DNA of 36,992 nucleotides, from assembly GCA_021791755.1 (NCBI GenBank), contig JAJYWA010000012.1, forward strand, positions 1 through 36,992, given 5' to 3'. Every line of letters begins with the position of its first letter. The stretch's first letter is position 1. Origin of the DNA: Actinomycetes bacterium. Lineage in GTDB: Bacteria; Actinomycetota; Acidimicrobiia; Acidimicrobiales; JAJZXF01. This document shows, piece by piece, positions 26,535 to 36,992 of this stretch. Below the pieces are notes generated by a model. The model saw only the letters and a program-made list of their open reading frames with translations. It had not been told where the DNA came from and made no database searches. The position numbers and the translations under genes were made by a program.

Positions 26535-28322
26535 TCAGAGCTCTTGCGCCTGGAACCCGAGGGAGATGTCCGGACCTGCCCAGTCCGGGTCGGCGTGGCC
26601 ATCGTTGTAGCACTGGATCAGGTGCTCCAGCCACGCAACGCTGCGCACCAGCCCCCCGGCGCGGTTGCGAGCGAGCCATAGTTCCCGATAGTGCTCGGTC
26701 AGGGATGCAAGCTCTCGTGCAAAGTGGTCTCGTTGTGGCGCCGGCACTGAGTCGAGCGTCCCATCACCCTGCAGCCTCGACAGCGCATCCCTGGTGAGCA
26801 GCGATACCAGCGCGGCGGAGGCTCGGAGCTCATCCATGACGAGCGCGCCGTCTTCCGAGCGAGGCTGTGCGGCGTCCAGGCTTGCCACAGCGCGAATGAG
26901 GTGCTCTTCCACCTTTTCGAGGTCCTCGGCTCGCAGGCCGACCGTGAAGCCGTCCCCCAGCGTGAGCTGTGGGAAGTACAGGTGTAGGACCAGCGTCGAA
27001 AGGTTCGGGAACTGGCAGCTCAGCAGATCGTAGGTGTTGCCGAGAGCAATCAATGCGCCACCGATCTCCATGGATGGATCATCGAGCACGTGTAGCGAGA
27101 GAGCAGCTGCCAGATCGATCGAGCGGTTCTGCTCCCAGCACCACGAGACGGCCGCGGCGTACGCGAAGCCTGGATAGCTGATGGGCAGGTGCTGAAGGTG
27201 CCCCATATCGCCCCAGTCGGTGACGAGATAGCCTGTTGCGCCGCCGGCAAGGCCCTCTGCTGCGGCTTTGCTGCAGTTGCGGACCATGTTCCCGGTCCTT
27301 CCCAGGATGCTCAGCCAGCTGGACGTTCCTGGGCAGACCCATGTCTCTCTTCCCCCGGCGGACAGCTCGGACAGCTTCTCGCCGAATGGGTGCCAGTCCT
27401 CATACCCCCACTCACAGACGACGACATCCTCTGGGAGCTGGGGAACCAGTGACCGGTCGGCCGAGATGCGATCGCCCCAGACCAGCATCGTCCTTTGGTC
27501 CATCTCGCGCGACTCCCGGAGCTGGCGCATCCATGTCATGTACTCTGCGCCTGATCCTGGTGGCAGCTCCCACGGCTCATCGAGTCCCACATGCATCTTA
27601 TTGCTGGTGAAGCAGCTTCCGAGCTGGCCTAGCAGGTCGCGCACGAGCTCCAGGGATCCTGGGTTCGACGGGTCCAGCGTGCTGGCAGGGTGCCTCAGTC
27701 CGAAACCGTCCACACGCCCCTCGGGAGCGATCGCAAGGCTGTGGTACCTCGGGTGCCACAGCCACCGTTCCATATGTCCGAGGGTGTTCTGGTTTGGAAC
27801 CAGCTCCATGAAGCGGGCCCTGCAGAACGAGTCCAGACGGGCCAGGTCGTCAGCCGTGAGCGCGCTTGCCGCCGCCCACACGGCGTCGTGACCGCGGTAC
27901 GCGAAGGTATGCTCCATGTAGAGTTGGAGCTGGTTGACCTTCCACGAAGCGAGCAGCTCTACGAGCTGCTCGAGGGTGGCAATGGTTGGGACCTTGTCCC
28001 GGGATATATCGATCATCACGCCCCTCACCGGGAAGTCTGGCCAGTCACTGATCCTGCAACTGGGCAAGCCGTGGGGATTGAGGTGCCTGAGCTGGGCAAG
28101 CGTGCATCGCCCGTAGAACGCGCCGGCCTCGTCGGGCGCTGTGATCACGATGCCGTCGCGGTCCACCTCGAGCACGTACCCTTCGGCCTTGACGGGAGCA
28201 GATGCGTCGATGACTACGCGCTCGTCACAGTCGTCGACCAGGTCTGACCCAGGGTTCACGGAGCGAGGTCTCGGGAGAAGCCCATCCAGTATCTCCCGGG
28301 CCCGCCTGGTATCCGCGGTCAT
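26535..28322 (-). CDS. Glycoside hydrolase family 20-like beta-N-acetylhexosaminidase, apparently cytoplasmic
   Basis: SDWPDFPVRGVMIDISRDKVPTIATLEQLVELLASWKVNQLQLYMEHTFAY..., SNKMHVGLDEPWELPPGSG (H-x-G-x-D-E catalytic pair), WGDRI. No signal peptide visible. Confidence 0.85.
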   Translation of the reverse strand: MTADTRRAREILDGLLPRPRSVNPGSDLVDDCDERVVIDASAPVKAEGYVLEVDRDGIVITAPDEAGAFYGRCTLAQLRHLNPHGLPSCRISDWPDFPVRGVMIDISRDKVPTIATLEQLVELLASWKVNQLQLYMEHTFAYRGHDAVWAAASALTADDLARLDSFCRARFMELVPNQNTLGHMERWLWHPRYHSLAIAPEGRVDGFGLRHPASTLDPSNPGSLELVRDLLGQLGSCFTSNKMHVGLDEPWELPPGSGAEYMTWMRQLRESREMDQRTMLVWGDRISADRSLVPQLPEDVVVCEWGYEDWHPFGEKLSELSAGGRETWVCPGTSSWLSILGRTGNMVRNCSKAAAEGLAGGATGYLVTDWGDMGHLQHLPISYPGFAYAAAVSWCWEQNRSIDLAAALSLHVLDDPSMEIGGALIALGNTYDLLSCQFPNLSTLVLHLYFPQLTLGDGFTVGLRAEDLEKVEEHLIRAVASLDAAQPRSEDGALVMDELRASAALVSLLTRDALSRLQGDGTLDSVPAPQRDHFARELASLTEHYRELWLARNRAGGLVRSVAWLEHLIQCYNDGHADPDWAGPDISLGFQAQEL

Positions 28323-28331
28323 GCGATCACC

Positions 28332-29198
28332 TCAGATTTCCGCGCCGGTGGCCTTCGGGCGCTTCTCGTAGACTATGTACGCCTCTGCTATCTTGCCCCC
28401 AAGTCTGGCATAGGCGGAGATGACGCTGACCCATGACACCTTGACGCGGCTCCTTCCCTGCTCTCGTAGGTGCACGACGGCCGCATCGAGGATCCGTGCC
28501 CCGACGCCCTTGCCCATCAGGTCGGGTCGTACTGCTACGGGGCCGAGCACACCGTGCCGGTTCACGTCGAGCGCGCAGAAGCCACTGATCCCGTCCTCGT
28601 CCTCGGCCACGAGCAACATGGACTTGTCCAGAGCCCTCATGACCTCCTTTTTCCAGAAGCGCCAGTGGGTGTCCATGAACGAAGCGAGGTGGCTGCGATC
28701 GTCCTCGGTGGCCAGCTTCGCGCCCCCTCCAGAGACTCCGCCCAGTGTGCTCAGGTCGATCATCATGTCGAAGTTCACCGCGGTCCGCTGGTACTTGAAC
28801 CGCTCGAGGAGGCACTGCATAGCGGTCCAGGAAAGCTCCACGCCGGGAAAAAGGTAGTAAGGCGCGTCAGCCCCAATGGTGATCGTGGAGGCTGTCGCGA
28901 GATCGCGTTCGGCAGCCTCGAGAAGATCGTGGCCATGTCCCCTGCGCTGGTACGCGGGGTCGACTACGAGAAGCTTGACGAAGCCTCGGACTTCCCCGTT
29001 CGCTTCGTTCTCCTGAACAGAGGTCGCTACGACCGCCATCGTCGGGTCTCCGCGAACGCAGGCGGGTTCGTCTCGCGCGAAGAGACAGCCCAGGATCTCT
29101 CCGGCGTCCGGCGGATCCGGCAACGCTCTGCGGCAGAGCTTGGCGATCTCGCCAGCACTGGTCGCGTCCAGCGCATCGAGTGGTGTAGCGGACCTCAC
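28332..29198 (-). CDS. GNAT-family N-acetyltransferase (tandem GNAT-like)
   Basis: RGFVKLLVVDPAYQRRGHGHDLLEAAERDL and GPVAVRPDLMGKGVGARILDAAVVHLREQG: two acetyl-CoA-loop-like motifs. GTG start at 29198 overlaps the NTP-transferase TGA. Confidence 0.82.
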   Translation of the reverse strand: MRSATPLDALDATSAGEIAKLCRRALPDPPDAGEILGCLFARDEPACVRGDPTMAVVATSVQENEANGEVRGFVKLLVVDPAYQRRGHGHDLLEAAERDLATASTITIGADAPYYLFPGVELSWTAMQCLLERFKYQRTAVNFDMMIDLSTLGGVSGGGAKLATEDDRSHLASFMDTHWRFWKKEVMRALDKSMLLVAEDEDGISGFCALDVNRHGVLGPVAVRPDLMGKGVGARILDAAVVHLREQGRSRVKVSWVSVISAYARLGGKIAEAYIVYEKRPKATGAEI

Positions 29199-30202
29199 GC
29201 AGGCGCCCTGTGAGCACCCCAGAGCGGATCTGGGATAACGCCTGCTGCAACAAGGTCCTCGACCTGCTCCCGCACGGCCTTGAGATCCGCTCCGTGCGTG
29301 ACACCTATGCACCGTCCTGTTGAAGCCAAGATCCGGACTCTCTCAGGGCGCGGCCGGGAGATCATCTCTCCGACTACGTCCGGAAGCAGCAGCTCGTCGC
29401 TGTTGTCGACACCTGAGCCGCTGTGGAGCTCAGAGAAGTGGTCAAATGCCTCTTGGAGCACGGGGAAGATAGATGGCAGGAAACCCCACATGTTCACGGA
29501 CACGAGCTCGTCGCCTTTCAGGGCAACCGTGGCATCGTTGTTGCTGGCAGAGAAGGCGCCATCGTCGCGCACGGTGATCGTCTGCTCTGTGATCGCGGTC
29601 AGGTAGCCGTCGGCGTCCTGGTCGCAGGTTGCCCTCTTCACCGGCCCGTGACCTACGATCGTGTTCCGGAGCTTGAAGCCTACTAGGACATGGCTTGGCG
29701 GGTCCTGCCCCCCGCCCGTCTGTTGCTCCTGCCCCCCGCCCGTCAGATGATCGTAAAGCAGCTGGTATGACGCGGCCCCGTAGAGGTCATCCGCATTGAC
29801 CACACCGAAAGGGGCGCTGATGGCCGCACGCGTGGCAAGGACTGCTTGGGCCGTTCCACGAGGCATTCGGGCCGCTGTCGCGGCGATACTTGTCCCTGAG
29901 GCGCCAGGCATCGCCGCTGATTCCTGGCGTATGAGATCTACATGGAGATCGGCTGGCCAGCACCTCTTGATGTGGTATTCGAGCGTTGCTTCGATCTCGG
30001 CCCTGACAACCATCACCACCGACTCGAAGCCTGCCTCCATCGCATCGCGGACCGAGAGGTCGATTATCGCCTCTCCCCGCGCGCCTATTGGGGCCAGCGG
30101 TTTCAGGCCGCCATAGCGCCGGCCCAGACCTGCTGCCAAGATCACCAGCGCAGGTTTCTCAGGACACTGTCCTTTGCTTTCGGATTTCACAACGGATTTC
30201 AC
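29195..30202 (-). CDS. Sugar-1-phosphate nucleotidyltransferase (NTP_transferase)
   Basis: KPALVILAAGLGRRYGGLKPLAPIGARGEAIIDLSVRDAMEAGFESVVMVVR..., FGVVNADDLYGAASYQLLYDHL. GTG start at 30202 with GAGGAGG 7 nt upstream. Confidence 0.87.
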   Translation of the reverse strand: MKSVVKSESKGQCPEKPALVILAAGLGRRYGGLKPLAPIGARGEAIIDLSVRDAMEAGFESVVMVVRAEIEATLEYHIKRCWPADLHVDLIRQESAAMPGASGTSIAATAARMPRGTAQAVLATRAAISAPFGVVNADDLYGAASYQLLYDHLTGGGQEQQTGGGQDPPSHVLVGFKLRNTIVGHGPVKRATCDQDADGYLTAITEQTITVRDDGAFSASNNDATVALKGDELVSVNMWGFLPSIFPVLQEAFDHFSELHSGSGVDNSDELLLPDVVGEMISRPRPERVRILASTGRCIGVTHGADLKAVREQVEDLVAAGVIPDPLWGAHRAPA

Positions 30203-30241
30203 ACGGTCTCGCCTCCTCGTGGAGCTTCTCGAACACTTTAG

Positions 30242-31957
<1,716 letters not shown>

Positions 31958-32138: not shown

Positions 32139-33059
32139 ATGAGACTCGCGCGCGCGCGGTGGGAATCCCGTATTGTGCTGGTTCGTCTGGATTCAGACTT
32201 GGAAGCTCCTGATGATGCAAGCGACGGAGCATCGCCGGTTGGCGTCGTTCTCGCGAGTGAGTCGAGCCATCCCGCTGCTGATGTCCTGAGGGAGGCGTTG
32301 GCGTCAGCGGTCGACCTGCGAGGCCCGGGCATCGCCGAGGTCGCGCTGGCCGATCTCGAGTTGCTCAGCCCGGTGGCCAACCCGTCCAAGCTGCTCGGAG
32401 TGGGCGACAACTACGCTGACCATGCCGACGAGCTCGGTGACGAACGCCCTCTGGCTCCTTTGCTGTTCCTGAAGGCGACGAGCGCCATCATAGGTCCTCT
32501 GGACCTGGTGACCTTCAGCCTTGCTGACTCTCAGCAGGTTGACTTCGAGGCGGAGCTTGCGGTGGTAATCGGCGCCCGCTGCCGGAGTGTGCCTTCTGAG
32601 GAGGCCCTCGAACACGTTCTGGGCTACACCCTGTGCAACGATGTGTCGGCGCGTGATGCGCAGTACGAGGTTGGTGGTCAGTGGATGAGGGGCAAGTCCT
32701 TCGACACCTTCGCGCCTCTCGGACCCTGGATCGTGACGCGAGACGAGATTCCCGCTCCGGTCGACCTTCGCATCACCTGCAAGGTCAACGGCGAGACCAT
32801 GCAGGACAGCAGGACGTCGCGGATGATCTTCGGCGTCGCGGAGATCGTGGCCTACGCCTCACGGTTCATGACGCTGGAGCCGGGCGATGTCATCTCGACC
32901 GGGACGCCCTCGGGTGTCGGTTCGGGCCGCAAGCCGCCCGTTTTCCTGCGCGATGGCGATGTTGTAGAGGTCGAGGTGGAGCGCGTGGGCGCGTTGAGGA
33001 ACGTCGTGAGAGCCGTTGCCGACAGAGCGCCGTCCTCTGGTGGCTTGCGAACCGCCTGA
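32139..33059 (+). CDS. Fumarylacetoacetate hydrolase (FAH) family protein
   Basis: KLLGVGDNYADHADELG, VDFEAELAVVIG, GYTLCNDVSARDAQ, GKSFDTFAPLGPWIVTRDEI, FMTLEPGDVISTGTPSGVG, FLRDGDVVEVEVERVG. Confidence 0.95.
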   Translation: MRLARARWESRIVLVRLDSDLEAPDDASDGASPVGVVLASESSHPAADVLREALASAVDLRGPGIAEVALADLELLSPVANPSKLLGVGDNYADHADELGDERPLAPLLFLKATSAIIGPLDLVTFSLADSQQVDFEAELAVVIGARCRSVPSEEALEHVLGYTLCNDVSARDAQYEVGGQWMRGKSFDTFAPLGPWIVTRDEIPAPVDLRITCKVNGETMQDSRTSRMIFGVAEIVAYASRFMTLEPGDVISTGTPSGVGSGRKPPVFLRDGDVVEVEVERVGALRNVVRAVADRAPSSGGLRTA

Positions 33060-33157
33060 GCTACGCTTGCCTCAGCCAGCAGGTGTTGGTGGCGGAAGGC
33101 ATGCCTGCGCGGGCGGGGCATTGCGGGGCATTGACAGTGGTGCAGATGATCTAACAG

Positions 33158-34330
33158 GTGATCCAGGAGGAAGACACGAGAGTGGTTGACGCAAGACCAT
33201 CGAACGAGTTTCGATCTCTGGGCTTCGAGGCTTCCCGGGCAGCGGATCTAATGGCGGAGCATGGCGTCGGTGCGGTGCTCGTGAGCCTGCCCGAGAACGT
33301 CTATTACACGACCGGCTACCCCTGTATCACTGGTACCGGAAATCCGATCCTGTTCAATCTGAGGAATCGCCTGCCAGCGTTTGCGTGCATCGGGTCGGAT
33401 GGCGCGCCGGCGCTGCTCTGCTGGGCGTTCTCCACCTATGGCGTGACCTTTGGCGCCGAGAGAGTGGTGGGCTACGAGGACCTGGACACTGCGGTCAGCT
33501 CGGTTCGCCAAGTGGTCTCGGAGCAGCTCAGCGCCGGCGAGAAGCTCGGCATCGAGTCGACATGTCCCCACTACGTTCTCGAAGCTCTGGCGGAGGACGG
33601 CATTGGCTCCGAGAGGTTGGTCGTGGTCGACTCGCTTCTAAGATCCTTGCGCCTCATCAAGTCTCCTCGCGAGCTGGAGGTTCTCGAGAAGAGCCTGGAA
33701 ATTGCGGAGTCCTGCGTCGACGAGTTGTTCTCCGTGCTGACCGTCGGTTCGTCGCGCCTAGCGCTCATCAACGAGGCCAAGCGGTACCTCTTCGAGCGCG
33801 GGGTCGACGGGATAAGCCACATAACCATCTCCTTCGGTACAGAGAACCCGGAGATCGCCATCGACGAGACCCTTGCCGAGAACAAGCTCATCACCTTGGA
33901 CGTAGGGGCTATGGTAGGCGGCTACTGTTCTGACAACCGCCGTTACGGGTTCTCGGGCGAGATCCCAGAGCAGATCAGCCATCTCTACGAGTCGATGGTC
34001 GGAGTCGTGGACTCGATCGGGGCGGTCCTGAAACCTGGAACGCCGTACTCGGACCTGTTCGCGTACGGCAAGAAGCTCCTGATCGACTCCAACATCACCG
34101 GCCATGAGTGGCTGAACCACGTAGGTCATTCCATAGGCCTCGAGATCGAGGAGGACTGGATAGACGACCGGGTGGGGCCGCGCATCGAAGAAGGCATGGT
34201 GGTTGCGATAGAGCTCTACACCATCACCGATGAGCTGGTTCCCATCGGCAACGAGGAGACGTACCACATCACTGGGACCGGCACGAAGAGGATGTCTATG
34301 CTTCCCCGCGTGCTGCACCGTGTGGCGTGA
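33158..34330 (+). CDS. M24 family (Xaa-Pro peptidase/creatinase fold) metallohydrolase
   Basis: LRSLRLIKSPRELEVLEKSLEIAE, ITLDVGAMVGGYCSDNRR (D..D), GHSIGLEIEE (H), VVAIELYTI (E), EETYHIT (E): complete ligand set. Start could be GTG 33158 or GTG 33182. Confidence 0.9.
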   Translation: MIQEEDTRVVDARPSNEFRSLGFEASRAADLMAEHGVGAVLVSLPENVYYTTGYPCITGTGNPILFNLRNRLPAFACIGSDGAPALLCWAFSTYGVTFGAERVVGYEDLDTAVSSVRQVVSEQLSAGEKLGIESTCPHYVLEALAEDGIGSERLVVVDSLLRSLRLIKSPRELEVLEKSLEIAESCVDELFSVLTVGSSRLALINEAKRYLFERGVDGISHITISFGTENPEIAIDETLAENKLITLDVGAMVGGYCSDNRRYGFSGEIPEQISHLYESMVGVVDSIGAVLKPGTPYSDLFAYGKKLLIDSNITGHEWLNHVGHSIGLEIEEDWIDDRVGPRIEEGMVVAIELYTITDELVPIGNEETYHITGTGTKRMSMLPRVLHRVA

Positions 34331-34434
34331 GTCATGAACGGTTGTGGAACCGGATCGTGTGGAACCGGATCGTTGGCTCTAGACGCCGTCCATCTTGACT
34401 GGCGTGGATGGCCTGGCTGCCTTGAAAGGATGAT

Positions 34435-35457
34435 GTGACGGTGTTGCGGATCGGAATGGTTGGGCTTGGCCTCATCTCGGCGGCTCATGGGCATGGGTAC
34501 GAGCTCGAGAAGGACCTGGTGGAGGTAGTCGCGGTCTGCGACAGCGCGGACGAGATGGCAGCGGCGAGGGCCAAGGTCATCGGCTGCAAGGGCTACACGG
34601 ACTATGACGAGCTCCTGGGTGACCACGAGATCGATGCTGTTGATCTCATGGTCCCGCACCACCTGCACTTTCCGATGGCGAAGGCAGCTCTCGAGGCAGG
34701 AAAGCACGTCATCGTGGAAAAGCCGCTCGCGAACAGCTCTGTCGAGGCGGAGCAGCTCGTCGCGCTTGCGAAGGCGAAGGGCTTGGTGATCAGCGTGGCG
34801 GAGAACACTCGGTTCGTGGCTGCGTACCTGGCATTGCAAAAGGTTCTGGAGGATGGTCGCCTAGGCGAGATACGTCTCATCAGGACTTTCATCGCGGGGA
34901 GCGAGGTCGTGCGGTTGTCGGATCCTACGCTGTGGAAGGGGAGCCGCATCGGGTCAGGCGGTGGGACCATCATGGACGCGGGGGCTCACTCGTTCTACCT
35001 GCTGTACTGGCTTTTCGGAGAGATCAAGAAGGTGCGGGCCGTCCAGTACAAGATGGTGCCCGAGAGCGAGGTGGAGGACCACGCGATCGTTTCGGGCACG
35101 CTGGACGGCGGGGCGATCTTCAGCACGGAGTTCACGTTCACAGCCGAGATTCCCTGGACGGAGCGGCTGGAGGTGTACGGGAGCACGGGGAGCGTCATCA
35201 TCGATCAACTCGCCGACCCGCCTGCGGTCTGGTACCGGGACGAGTGGGATGCCAAAGGCACTCCCCTCGAAGGGGTTGGCTCCGACGTGTTCGGCTGGAA
35301 GCTCCATTCGATAGCCGATGGCGTGCGGGACTTCGCCAGGGCTGTCGTCGAGCACAGAGCTCCCCAGGTGGACCCAGAGCTTGGCATACGGGCCTTGCGG
35401 GTGATCGAGCGCGCGTACGAGTCTGTCGCTCGCGACAGCAAAGAGCTGGAGGTATAG
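34435..35457 (+). CDS. Gfo/Idh/MocA family oxidoreductase
   Basis: LRIGMVGLGLISAAHGHGYELEKDLVEVVAVCDS (Rossmann), HVIVEKPLANSSVEAEQLVALAKAKGLVISVAENTRF, GGGTIMDAGAHSFYLLYWLFGE. Confidence 0.94.
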   Translation: MTVLRIGMVGLGLISAAHGHGYELEKDLVEVVAVCDSADEMAAARAKVIGCKGYTDYDELLGDHEIDAVDLMVPHHLHFPMAKAALEAGKHVIVEKPLANSSVEAEQLVALAKAKGLVISVAENTRFVAAYLALQKVLEDGRLGEIRLIRTFIAGSEVVRLSDPTLWKGSRIGSGGGTIMDAGAHSFYLLYWLFGEIKKVRAVQYKMVPESEVEDHAIVSGTLDGGAIFSTEFTFTAEIPWTERLEVYGSTGSVIIDQLADPPAVWYRDEWDAKGTPLEGVGSDVFGWKLHSIADGVRDFARAVVEHRAPQVDPELGIRALRVIERAYESVARDSKELEV

Positions 35458-35461
35458 GAGA

Positions 35462-36262
35462 ATGCGGACGGCGCGACCGGTTGTTATCACAGCATGCGCG
35501 AACGAGAGCTGGCTGTGGCCTAGCAAAGGAGGCGGTCCGGACACGGGGGTGGATCTGGACGAGCTGATCGCTGAAAGCGTGCGCTGCAAGGATGCGGGGG
35601 CTGCGGTGATGCATGTTCACACCGAAGGCGTCTGGGCTGAGGCGATCGATGGCATACGCGCCAAGACCGACCTGCTGGTCCAGTGCGGGATGTCGACGCT
35701 TCCGAAGGGTCCTCGCATGGCGGTCTTCGAGCACAAGGCGGAGATGATCTCCATCATGCTTGCGCACCATGACGAGGCGTTCGCGAACGTGCAGAACCAC
35801 GAGCTCCATCCGCGCGAGGAGCTGGTGGACTACGCAATGGTCTGCCGGGAGCACGGGGTTAAGCCGGAGTGCGAGATCTGGCACAGCGGCTCGATCTGGA
35901 ACCTCGAGTACTTAAAGGACGGCGGCCACCTCGATGAGCCGGTGATCACTACGCTGTTCTTCGGCTGGCCGGGAGGCACCTGGTCTCCGCCGACCGTGGA
36001 GGAGTACCTGTACCGTCGAAAGCTCATGCCGTCTGGGTGCGTTTCCAGCGTGAGCGTGATGGGCGAGCACCAAAGGGAGGTTCACACGATTGCGGTGCAG
36101 ATGGGCGATCACTTACGGGTCGGAACCGAGGACTGGCCTTTCAACCGGGCTGGAGAGAGGGCATCCACCTCGGAGCTCGTGGCCGAGGCCGCAGAGATGG
36201 TCGAGCTTCTCGGAGGCCGCGTTGCAACCGTCGCGGAGGCGAGAGAGCTGATGGGGCTGTGA
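35462..36262 (+). CDS. BKACE (beta-keto acid cleavage enzyme, DUF849) family protein
   Basis: PVVITACANES, CKDAGAAVMHVHTEG (HxH), VQCGMSTLPKGP, ECEIWHSGSIWNLEYL, VGTEDWPFNRAGERASTSELV (conserved Glu). Confidence 0.88.
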   Translation: MRTARPVVITACANESWLWPSKGGGPDTGVDLDELIAESVRCKDAGAAVMHVHTEGVWAEAIDGIRAKTDLLVQCGMSTLPKGPRMAVFEHKAEMISIMLAHHDEAFANVQNHELHPREELVDYAMVCREHGVKPECEIWHSGSIWNLEYLKDGGHLDEPVITTLFFGWPGGTWSPPTVEEYLYRRKLMPSGCVSSVSVMGEHQREVHTIAVQMGDHLRVGTEDWPFNRAGERASTSELVAEAAEMVELLGGRVATVAEARELMGL

Positions 36263-36992
36263 GCGCACCTGGCATGCAAGGCGCTCCGGTGGTCGTGGTG
36301 ACCGGTGCAGCCCAGGGGATTGGATACGCGGCCGCGAAGATGTTCGCCGAGAGGCTCTCGGCCCGGGTGGTGGCAGTGGACAGCTTGGCGCTTCCGGACT
36401 TCGGTGTGCCCGATGCCACCGCCGCTGGGGGCGGTGGCATCGACGCGAGGCGTTGCGACGTTACCGAAGAGAGCGAGGTGAAGGCGCTCGCGTCGGCTCT
36501 TCGAGACAGGTATGCGAGGGTGGACGTGTTGGTCAACAACGCGGGCGTCGTCCTCGTGAAGCCCCTCGCCGAGACCACGTGGGCAGATTTCCGCCATGTG
36601 GTCGATGTGAACCTGGGCGGTGCGATGCTCATGTGCCGGGAGCTCCTTCCGCTGCTGTCGGCGGCTTCCCCTGGTGCGGCTATTGTGAACCTGGCTTCGG
36701 TCTCAGGCCATGTGGGACAGGTTAACCATGCTGTCTATGGCGCCACCAAGGGGGCGGTCATATCCTTCACTCGCGGCCTCTCGTGGGAGCTTGCCCCCCT
36801 GGGTATCAGGGTCAACTCGCTGAGCCCGGGTTCCGTGGACACCCCTATGCTGCGCAGCGACGTGGAGGGAGAAGCTGCAAGGCAGCAGAGACCTGTCGCA
36901 GAGGTGCGAGCCGAGCGCGAGCAGGAGCAGGCTTTCGGGCGCTGGGCGAGCCCAGAGGAGATCGCAGAGGTGATCATCTTTCTCGCGAGCAA
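36259..36992 (+). CDS. Short-chain dehydrogenase/reductase (SDR), truncated by window end
   Basis: Manual translation from GTG overlapping the BKACE TGA: VSAPGMQGAPVVVVTGAAQGIGYAAAKMFAERL...DVLVNNAGVVLVKPL...VNLASVSGHVGQVNHAVYGATKGAVISFTRGLSWELAPLGIRVNSLSPGSVDTPML. Not in the ORF track because no stop lies in the window. Confidence 0.94.
   Translation, partial: MSAPGMQGAPVVVVTGAAQGIGYAAAKMFAERLSARVVAVDSLALPDFGVPDATAAGGGGIDARRCDVTEESEVKALASALRDRYARVDVLVNNAGVVLVKPLAETTWADFRHVVDVNLGGAMLMCRELLPLLSAASPGAAIVNLASVSGHVGQVNHAVYGATKGAVISFTRGLSWELAPLGIRVNSLSPGSVDTPMLRSDVEGEAARQQRPVAEVRAEREQEQAFGRWASPEEIAEVIIFLAS

Follow-up and report, generated by a model that had tools for sequence, protein, structure and literature searches.

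The L-rhamnose diketo-hydrolase route combines an SDR dehydrogenase with a hydrolase of the FAH superfamily and is not known to include a BKACE or an M24 protein. In the breakdown of phloroglucinol by Clostridium scatologenes, a hydroxyacid dehydrogenase is followed by a BKACE (PMC10470551), and in the oxidative deoxyribonate pathway an SDR yields a beta-keto sugar acid that a BKACE has been proposed to cleave (PMC6365646). Here, we describe a locus in contig JAJYWA010000012.1 of an Actinomycetes bacterium (assembly GCA_021791755.1), in which genes for an FAH, an M24 protein, a Gfo/Idh/MocA-family dehydrogenase (GFO), a BKACE and an SDR lie next to one another. The window, namely the whole stretch of 36 992 nucleotides that was analysed, is the entire contig (C15) of a 193-contig, 2.67 Mb genome. 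The locus brings known enzyme families together in a new, conserved combination. On balance, we think that it probably represents a new degradation pathway, in which GFO and a non-peptidase M24 protein would act as a bifunctional unit that oxidises and then cleaves, a pairing not described before, and would feed a new BKACE specificity class.

All five genes are on the + strand, spanning 32139-36990 (Table 1), and all five proteins far exceed the Pfam cut-offs of their families, which confirms the co-directional run of these families listed in an original prediction made from the sequence of the window. The successive intergenic spacings, from FAH to SDR, are 98, 104, 4 and -4 nt. The GTG start of SDR lies inside the end of BKACE, giving the predicted overlap with the stop, which measures 4 nt, and the BKACE ATG, which is preceded by a GGAG motif, is 4 nt past the GFO stop and not the 5 nt first given. 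The C-terminus of the SDR is missing because the contig stops there. Promoter, terminator and Rfam scans found no signal above chance. The prediction also placed a transporter and a regulator beyond the window. This is not indicated, as neither is evident directly beside the operon in a close relative, G001 (contig C90), in which all five genes recur in identical order, and the operon most likely terminates with SDR.

Related BKACEs were sought in relatives from one phylum at 44-87 % identity; many of these genomes look metagenome-assembled and their completeness varies. Including the window genome (G000), the BKACE clade is present in 15 genomes. The others are G001, G043, G039, G085, G834, G928 and G1024 from the same order, G106 and G116 from the same class, and G500, G541, G560, G639 and G697 from a second class, of which 31 genomes were sampled. 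In each of the 15, BKACE is immediately followed by SDR and a member of the specific M24 subfamily is present, and GFO adjoins M24 in 14. M24-profile and BKACE-profile searches, run separately, returned an identical 7 of 397 phylum-wide genomes at E<=1e-50, and a scan of genome contigs found one locus only, on the same contig as that of G001. Lineages reshuffle the gene order (Table 1), yet the GFO-M24 and SDR-BKACE pairs remain together. The G043 cluster is split over two contigs, and the C-terminus of its M24 is encoded at the end of C27, immediately ahead of GFO. A linked FAH is present in seven loci only (G000, G001, G043, G039, G085, G106 and G116) and in none from the class that bears the fusion described below. 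The co-occurrence of BKACE and M24 is conserved and far exceeds chance, and the predicted five-gene unit holds for the GFO-M24 and SDR-BKACE core but not for FAH. Locus genes were called with a simple script for open reading frames (ORFs), which leaves start sites and minor neighbours approximate.

In G639, G560 and G500, all from the second class, GFO and M24 are fused in a single chain. A single ORF of ~760 aa encodes the fused protein (L055:7116-9398 at one of the loci), which Pfam resolves into GFO, Creatinase_N and M24 domains, with both halves recognised in G560. We know of no other case of an M24 protein fused to a Gfo/Idh/MocA protein. Pairwise protein distances from 13 genomes correlate within the pairs (Spearman 0.85 for GFO-M24 and 0.81 for SDR-BKACE), and the correlations across pairs are weaker (0.19-0.55). 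Together with the identical hits of the two profile searches, these values support co-evolution. Pairing and linkage can be read directly from the sequences, and at that level the true core is four genes in two pairs, GFO-M24 and SDR-BKACE, with FAH as an optional addition. M24 and GFO are predicted to be one functional unit, and their fusion suggests that a keto intermediate is handed on directly. At the fusion loci, a gene for a small SCP2 (sterol-carrier-like) domain protein is found directly upstream of the fusion in four genomes (Table 1), and genes for GntR/FadR-type regulators, which are candidate cassette regulators, follow SDR in G541 and G639 (L053:8226-8942 and L054:8284-9072).

The cassette BKACEs form one group, supported by a Shimodaira-Hasegawa-like approximate likelihood ratio test (SH-aLRT) value of 100 and separate from 27 other BKACEs, and this clade falls outside every curated equivalog model. 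For the window BKACE, the best NCBIfam equivalog scores 105 bits against a cut-off of 382. The predicted Zn ligands H51, H53 and E223 and the pair R219/D224 are invariant in the cassette BKACEs, and we take them to correspond to His46/His48/Glu230 and Arg226/Asp231 of Kce, with the roles assumed for those residues. The structure model, with a predicted local distance difference test score (pLDDT) of 85.9, has a TIM-barrel fold and its top PDB matches are all of the BKACE/DUF849 family. The sister group consists of the G177, G490 and Sinorhizobium BKACEs, which have no adjacent M24 of the cassette kind, and FAH is a neighbour of the G490 (L059) and Sinorhizobium proteins. The search for plasmid relatives gave only the two distant Sinorhizobium BKACEs (32 %), without M24. 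At about 141 bits, the BKACEs from G531 and from G648 were rejected as cassette members and sit in unrelated clusters. The neighbours of the BKACE on the Sinorhizobium americanum plasmid (L066:7947-13825) are FAH, an FAD oxidoreductase, a carboxymuconolactone decarboxylase and a cyclase-family gene.

Active sites are complete in the alignments of the remaining proteins. All five metal ligands of M24 (D248, D259, H324, E352 and E366) are kept and invariant (alignment A3). However, alignment with the prolidase 1wy2 shows that the positions of the outer-sphere His are occupied by invariant Glu232 and Glu331. We take the replaced residues to be the substrate-contacting His192 and His291 of the Pyrococcus prolidase. 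Because both are Glu, M24 was not filed as a peptidase, and it is probably a non-peptidase metal-dependent hydrolase or lyase. The AlphaFold2 model (pLDDT 84.5) matches prolidase 1wy2 best, followed by creatinase, DddP and DoeA. C-N hydrolysis is a possible chemistry, as are C-O or C-C cleavage and beta-elimination. GFO has a Rossmann domain, and its EKP lysine and Asp/His pair are present (E95-K96-P97, D181 and H185, invariant in 13 rows). SDR is a classical member of its family, with S147, Y160 and K164 invariant and TGAAQGIG fitting TGxxxGxG. In the seven linked FAHs, His95/Glu98 and Glu137/Glu139/Asp168/Lys186 are invariant. The nearest solved relative of FAH is L-2,4-diketo-3-deoxyrhamnonate hydrolase 8gsr (phmmer E 1e-59), and FAH scores 245 bits against the cut-off of 500 for the 2,4-didehydro-3-deoxy-L-rhamnonate hydrolase model (NF053535).

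Our preferred reading, put forward tentatively, is that the five genes may make up a single operon for a catabolic pathway that is so far undescribed and rests on the two co-evolving pairs. The order of steps and every reaction in the following scheme are what we infer. GFO would form a ketone by oxidising a secondary alcohol; its substrate would be polar and probably polyhydroxylated or aminated. M24 would cleave the activated keto product, by C-N, C-O or C-C hydrolysis near the new carbonyl or by beta-elimination, leaving a 3-hydroxy acid. SDR would convert this to a beta-keto acid that the BKACE, with acetyl-CoA, would split into acetoacetate and an acyl-CoA, and FAH, where present, may hydrolyse a diketo/acylpyruvate-type side product or an alternative intermediate. 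As SDR follows BKACE in all 15 genomes, oxidation and then BKACE C-C cleavage is the natural reading, and that much of the predicted run of successive oxidations followed by cleavage is retained. The scheme also draws on the phloroglucinol and deoxyribonate pathways, each of which joins a BKACE to a hydroxyacid dehydrogenase (PMC10470551, PMC6365646).

Several observations weigh against this scheme. GFO is absent from the short G1024 contig (from a genome that is 68 % complete), and the divergent fused lineage partly drives the distance correlations. Identity of the BKACE to solved family members is only 20-24 % and, in the alignment, the enzyme apparently lacks the Ser-Thr-Gly loop found after IIQI in Kce, so its reaction could have changed. 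Such a change is seen in cis-epoxysuccinate hydrolase, which has the same fold and a different reaction. At the fusion loci, the conserved SCP2-domain gene may point to a binding subunit or to a ligand that is hydrophobic. A carbohydrate-like substrate is favoured by the genes beside the cluster in two relatives, but sugar genes occur at two loci of one family only.

It is most improbable that ordinary dehydrogenases and hydrolases, each with a role of its own, have come to lie side by side by chance. SDR, GFO and FAH are very large families and roughly half of the loci have no linked FAH, but the M24 and BKACE subfamilies share an identical genome distribution, the linkage is reordered but kept in 14-15 genomes, and M24 is fused to GFO. 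Chance is therefore contradicted for the four core genes and is open for FAH. Three other routes retain a pathway and assign it different chemistry. In one, which is phloroglucinol-like and in our opinion quite unlikely, GFO would convert a cyclitol or alicyclic alcohol to a cyclic beta-diketone, M24 would open the ring by retro-Claisen hydrolysis in the place of dihydrophloroglucinol cyclohydrolase (DPGC), SDR would oxidise the 3-hydroxy acid, and the BKACE would be a triacetate-type lyase. The best NCBIfam relative of GFO, myo-inositol 2-dehydrogenase (TIGR04380, 125 bits against a cut-off of 355), is consistent with this, but the BKACE scores 79 bits against the 430 of the triacetate/3,5-dioxohexanoate lyase model (NF053538), and we know of no M24 enzyme that catalyses a retro-Claisen reaction. 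The order of reductase/dehydrogenase, ring hydrolase, hydroxyacid dehydrogenase and BKACE parallels PGR-DPGC-TfD-TAL, but DPGC belongs to the cyclase family and not to M24 (PMC10470551). Invariant Trp17 of the cassette BKACEs aligns, ungapped, with the Glu14 position of Kce, where the C. scatologenes triacetate lyase has Trp16 (PMC10470551); however, HMMER gaps that stretch, and the correspondence is therefore ambiguous and a lead only.

If the correspondence holds, an amino-bearing beta-keto acid is not favoured. This bears on a route, which we regard as unlikely, where GFO would make a lactam, amidine or amide whose C-N bond M24 would hydrolyse in the manner of creatinase or DoeA, with the product passing to SDR and BKACE as in carnitine- or lysine-type BKACE pathways. 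Here, the match of the M24 model to the creatinase and DoeA structures, and the two invariant Glu near the metal site, which could bind an amine, accord with C-N hydrolysis, to our knowledge the commonest M24 chemistry. Nonetheless, M24 reaches 31 bits against the cut-off of 575 for the NCBIfam model of the ectoine hydrolase DoeA, the BKACE has no clear counterpart of Glu14 to accommodate a keto acid that bears an amino group, and no conserved aminotransferase, deaminase or amine transporter was seen near the loci. It is likewise unlikely that GFO oxidises C3 of a sugar or glycoside, possibly sulfated, that M24 eliminates or hydrolyses the substituent of the 3-keto sugar, and that SDR, BKACE and FAH degrade the keto sugar acid. 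GFO resembles DgpA and other sugar oxidoreductases among its PDB matches, though the similarity to DgpA is low. The match of M24 to the structure of DddP, which shows that an M24 fold can catalyse beta-elimination, and the nearness of FAH to a 2,4-diketo-3-deoxy sugar acid hydrolase fit this route. G928 and G116 both carry sulfatase genes close to the cluster, and G928 has sugar genes as well, but most loci have neither, and transposase-like genes adjoin the G116 cluster.

Returning to the preferred scheme, genes neighbouring the cassette were examined for clues to its substrate. Genes on either side of the G928 cluster (L080:249-17330) encode two sulfatases, ABC transporter components of the sugar type, an FGGY kinase, a class II aldolase, a xylose-isomerase-like TIM barrel and a 2-hydroxyacid dehydrogenase. 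An aldolase-like gene is directly upstream of BKACE in G1024, and genes for an acyl-CoA dehydrogenase, an AMP-binding CoA ligase and hydantoinase B are downstream of the cluster in G043 (L035:1-4862). Because these clues disagree, no substrate is named. In the window, an upstream MFS gene on the same strand (30296-31957) was rejected as an operon member because it matches multidrug-efflux models and no MFS gene is beside FAH in G001. GH20-type glycoside hydrolase, GNAT acetyltransferase and NTP-transferase-like genes are upstream of the MFS gene on the opposite strand (26535-30463), and these do not adjoin the cassette in G001.

Table 1. Genes of the cassette in the window, SCP2-domain genes at fusion loci and gene orders in the genomes that carry the cassette
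Feature	Position or genomes	Strand	Basis or remark
FAH-superfamily hydrolase, 306 aa, optional fifth member	32139-33059	+	Pfam FAA_hydrolase 258 bits
M24 (creatinase/prolidase-fold) protein, 390 aa, GTG start	33158-34330	+	Pfam Peptidase_M24 79 bits and Creatinase_N 47 bits
Gfo/Idh/MocA-family NAD(P)-dependent dehydrogenase, 340 aa, GTG start	34435-35457	+	Pfam GFO_IDH_MocA 101 bits
Divergent BKACE, 266 aa, ATG start	35462-36262	+	Pfam BKACE (PF05853) 147 bits, cut-off 24.8
SDR dehydrogenase, GTG start, C-terminally incomplete	36259-36990 (contig end)	+	Pfam adh_short_C2 170 bits
SCP2-domain gene	L055:6597-7028		Pfam-tested
SCP2-domain gene	L056:6648-7151		Similar by eye
SCP2-domain gene	L054:12938-13504		Similar by eye
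SCP2-domain gene	L057:3-404		Similar by eye
Order FAH-M24-GFO-BKACE-SDR	G000, G001
Order M24-GFO-BKACE-SDR-FAH	G043
BKACE-SDR-FAH divergent from M24-GFO	G039, G085
Order BKACE-SDR-M24-GFO	G834, G928
BKACE-SDR-GFO-M24, FAH convergent	G106, G116
GFO-M24 fusion-BKACE-SDR	G500, G560, G639		Same layout with frame breaks in G541 and G697

Assignment to a known pathway was rejected, as all five genes are well below the NCBIfam equivalog cut-offs for named steps. No description of the five-enzyme set was found in the open-access literature searched. Both predictions, that the module is uncharacterised and probably catabolic and that the combination is not a named pathway, agree with these results. The cassette is a well-delimited conserved enzyme set that includes a natural fusion of a dehydrogenase and an M24 metalloenzyme, and GFO and M24 occur together in none of the nearest worked-out pathways, namely those for phloroglucinol, deoxyribonate and L-rhamnose. 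Creatinase, DoeA and the dimethylsulfoniopropionate (DMSP) lyase DddP resemble the window M24 in using the pita-bread fold for a non-peptide substrate. However, identity to them is about 14-17 %, and the invariant replacement of both His by Glu places the window M24 in another subfamily. The L-rhamnose diketo-hydrolase pathway shares an SDR and a similar FAH with the window, but the window FAH falls short of its equivalog cut-off. The deoxyribonate pathway also pairs an SDR with a BKACE, but has no M24 or Gfo/Idh/MocA protein and includes a lactonase, MFS transporters and a Mo-dehydrogenase (PMC6365646). The phloroglucinol cluster resembles the window in having a hydroxyacid dehydrogenase and an acetyl-CoA-using BKACE and, upstream of them, a reductase and a metal-dependent hydrolase that opens the ring. 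It differs in that the ring hydrolase is of the cyclase family, no Gfo/Idh/MocA or FAH protein is described, and the cut-off for its lyase is far above the score of the window BKACE (PMC10470551).

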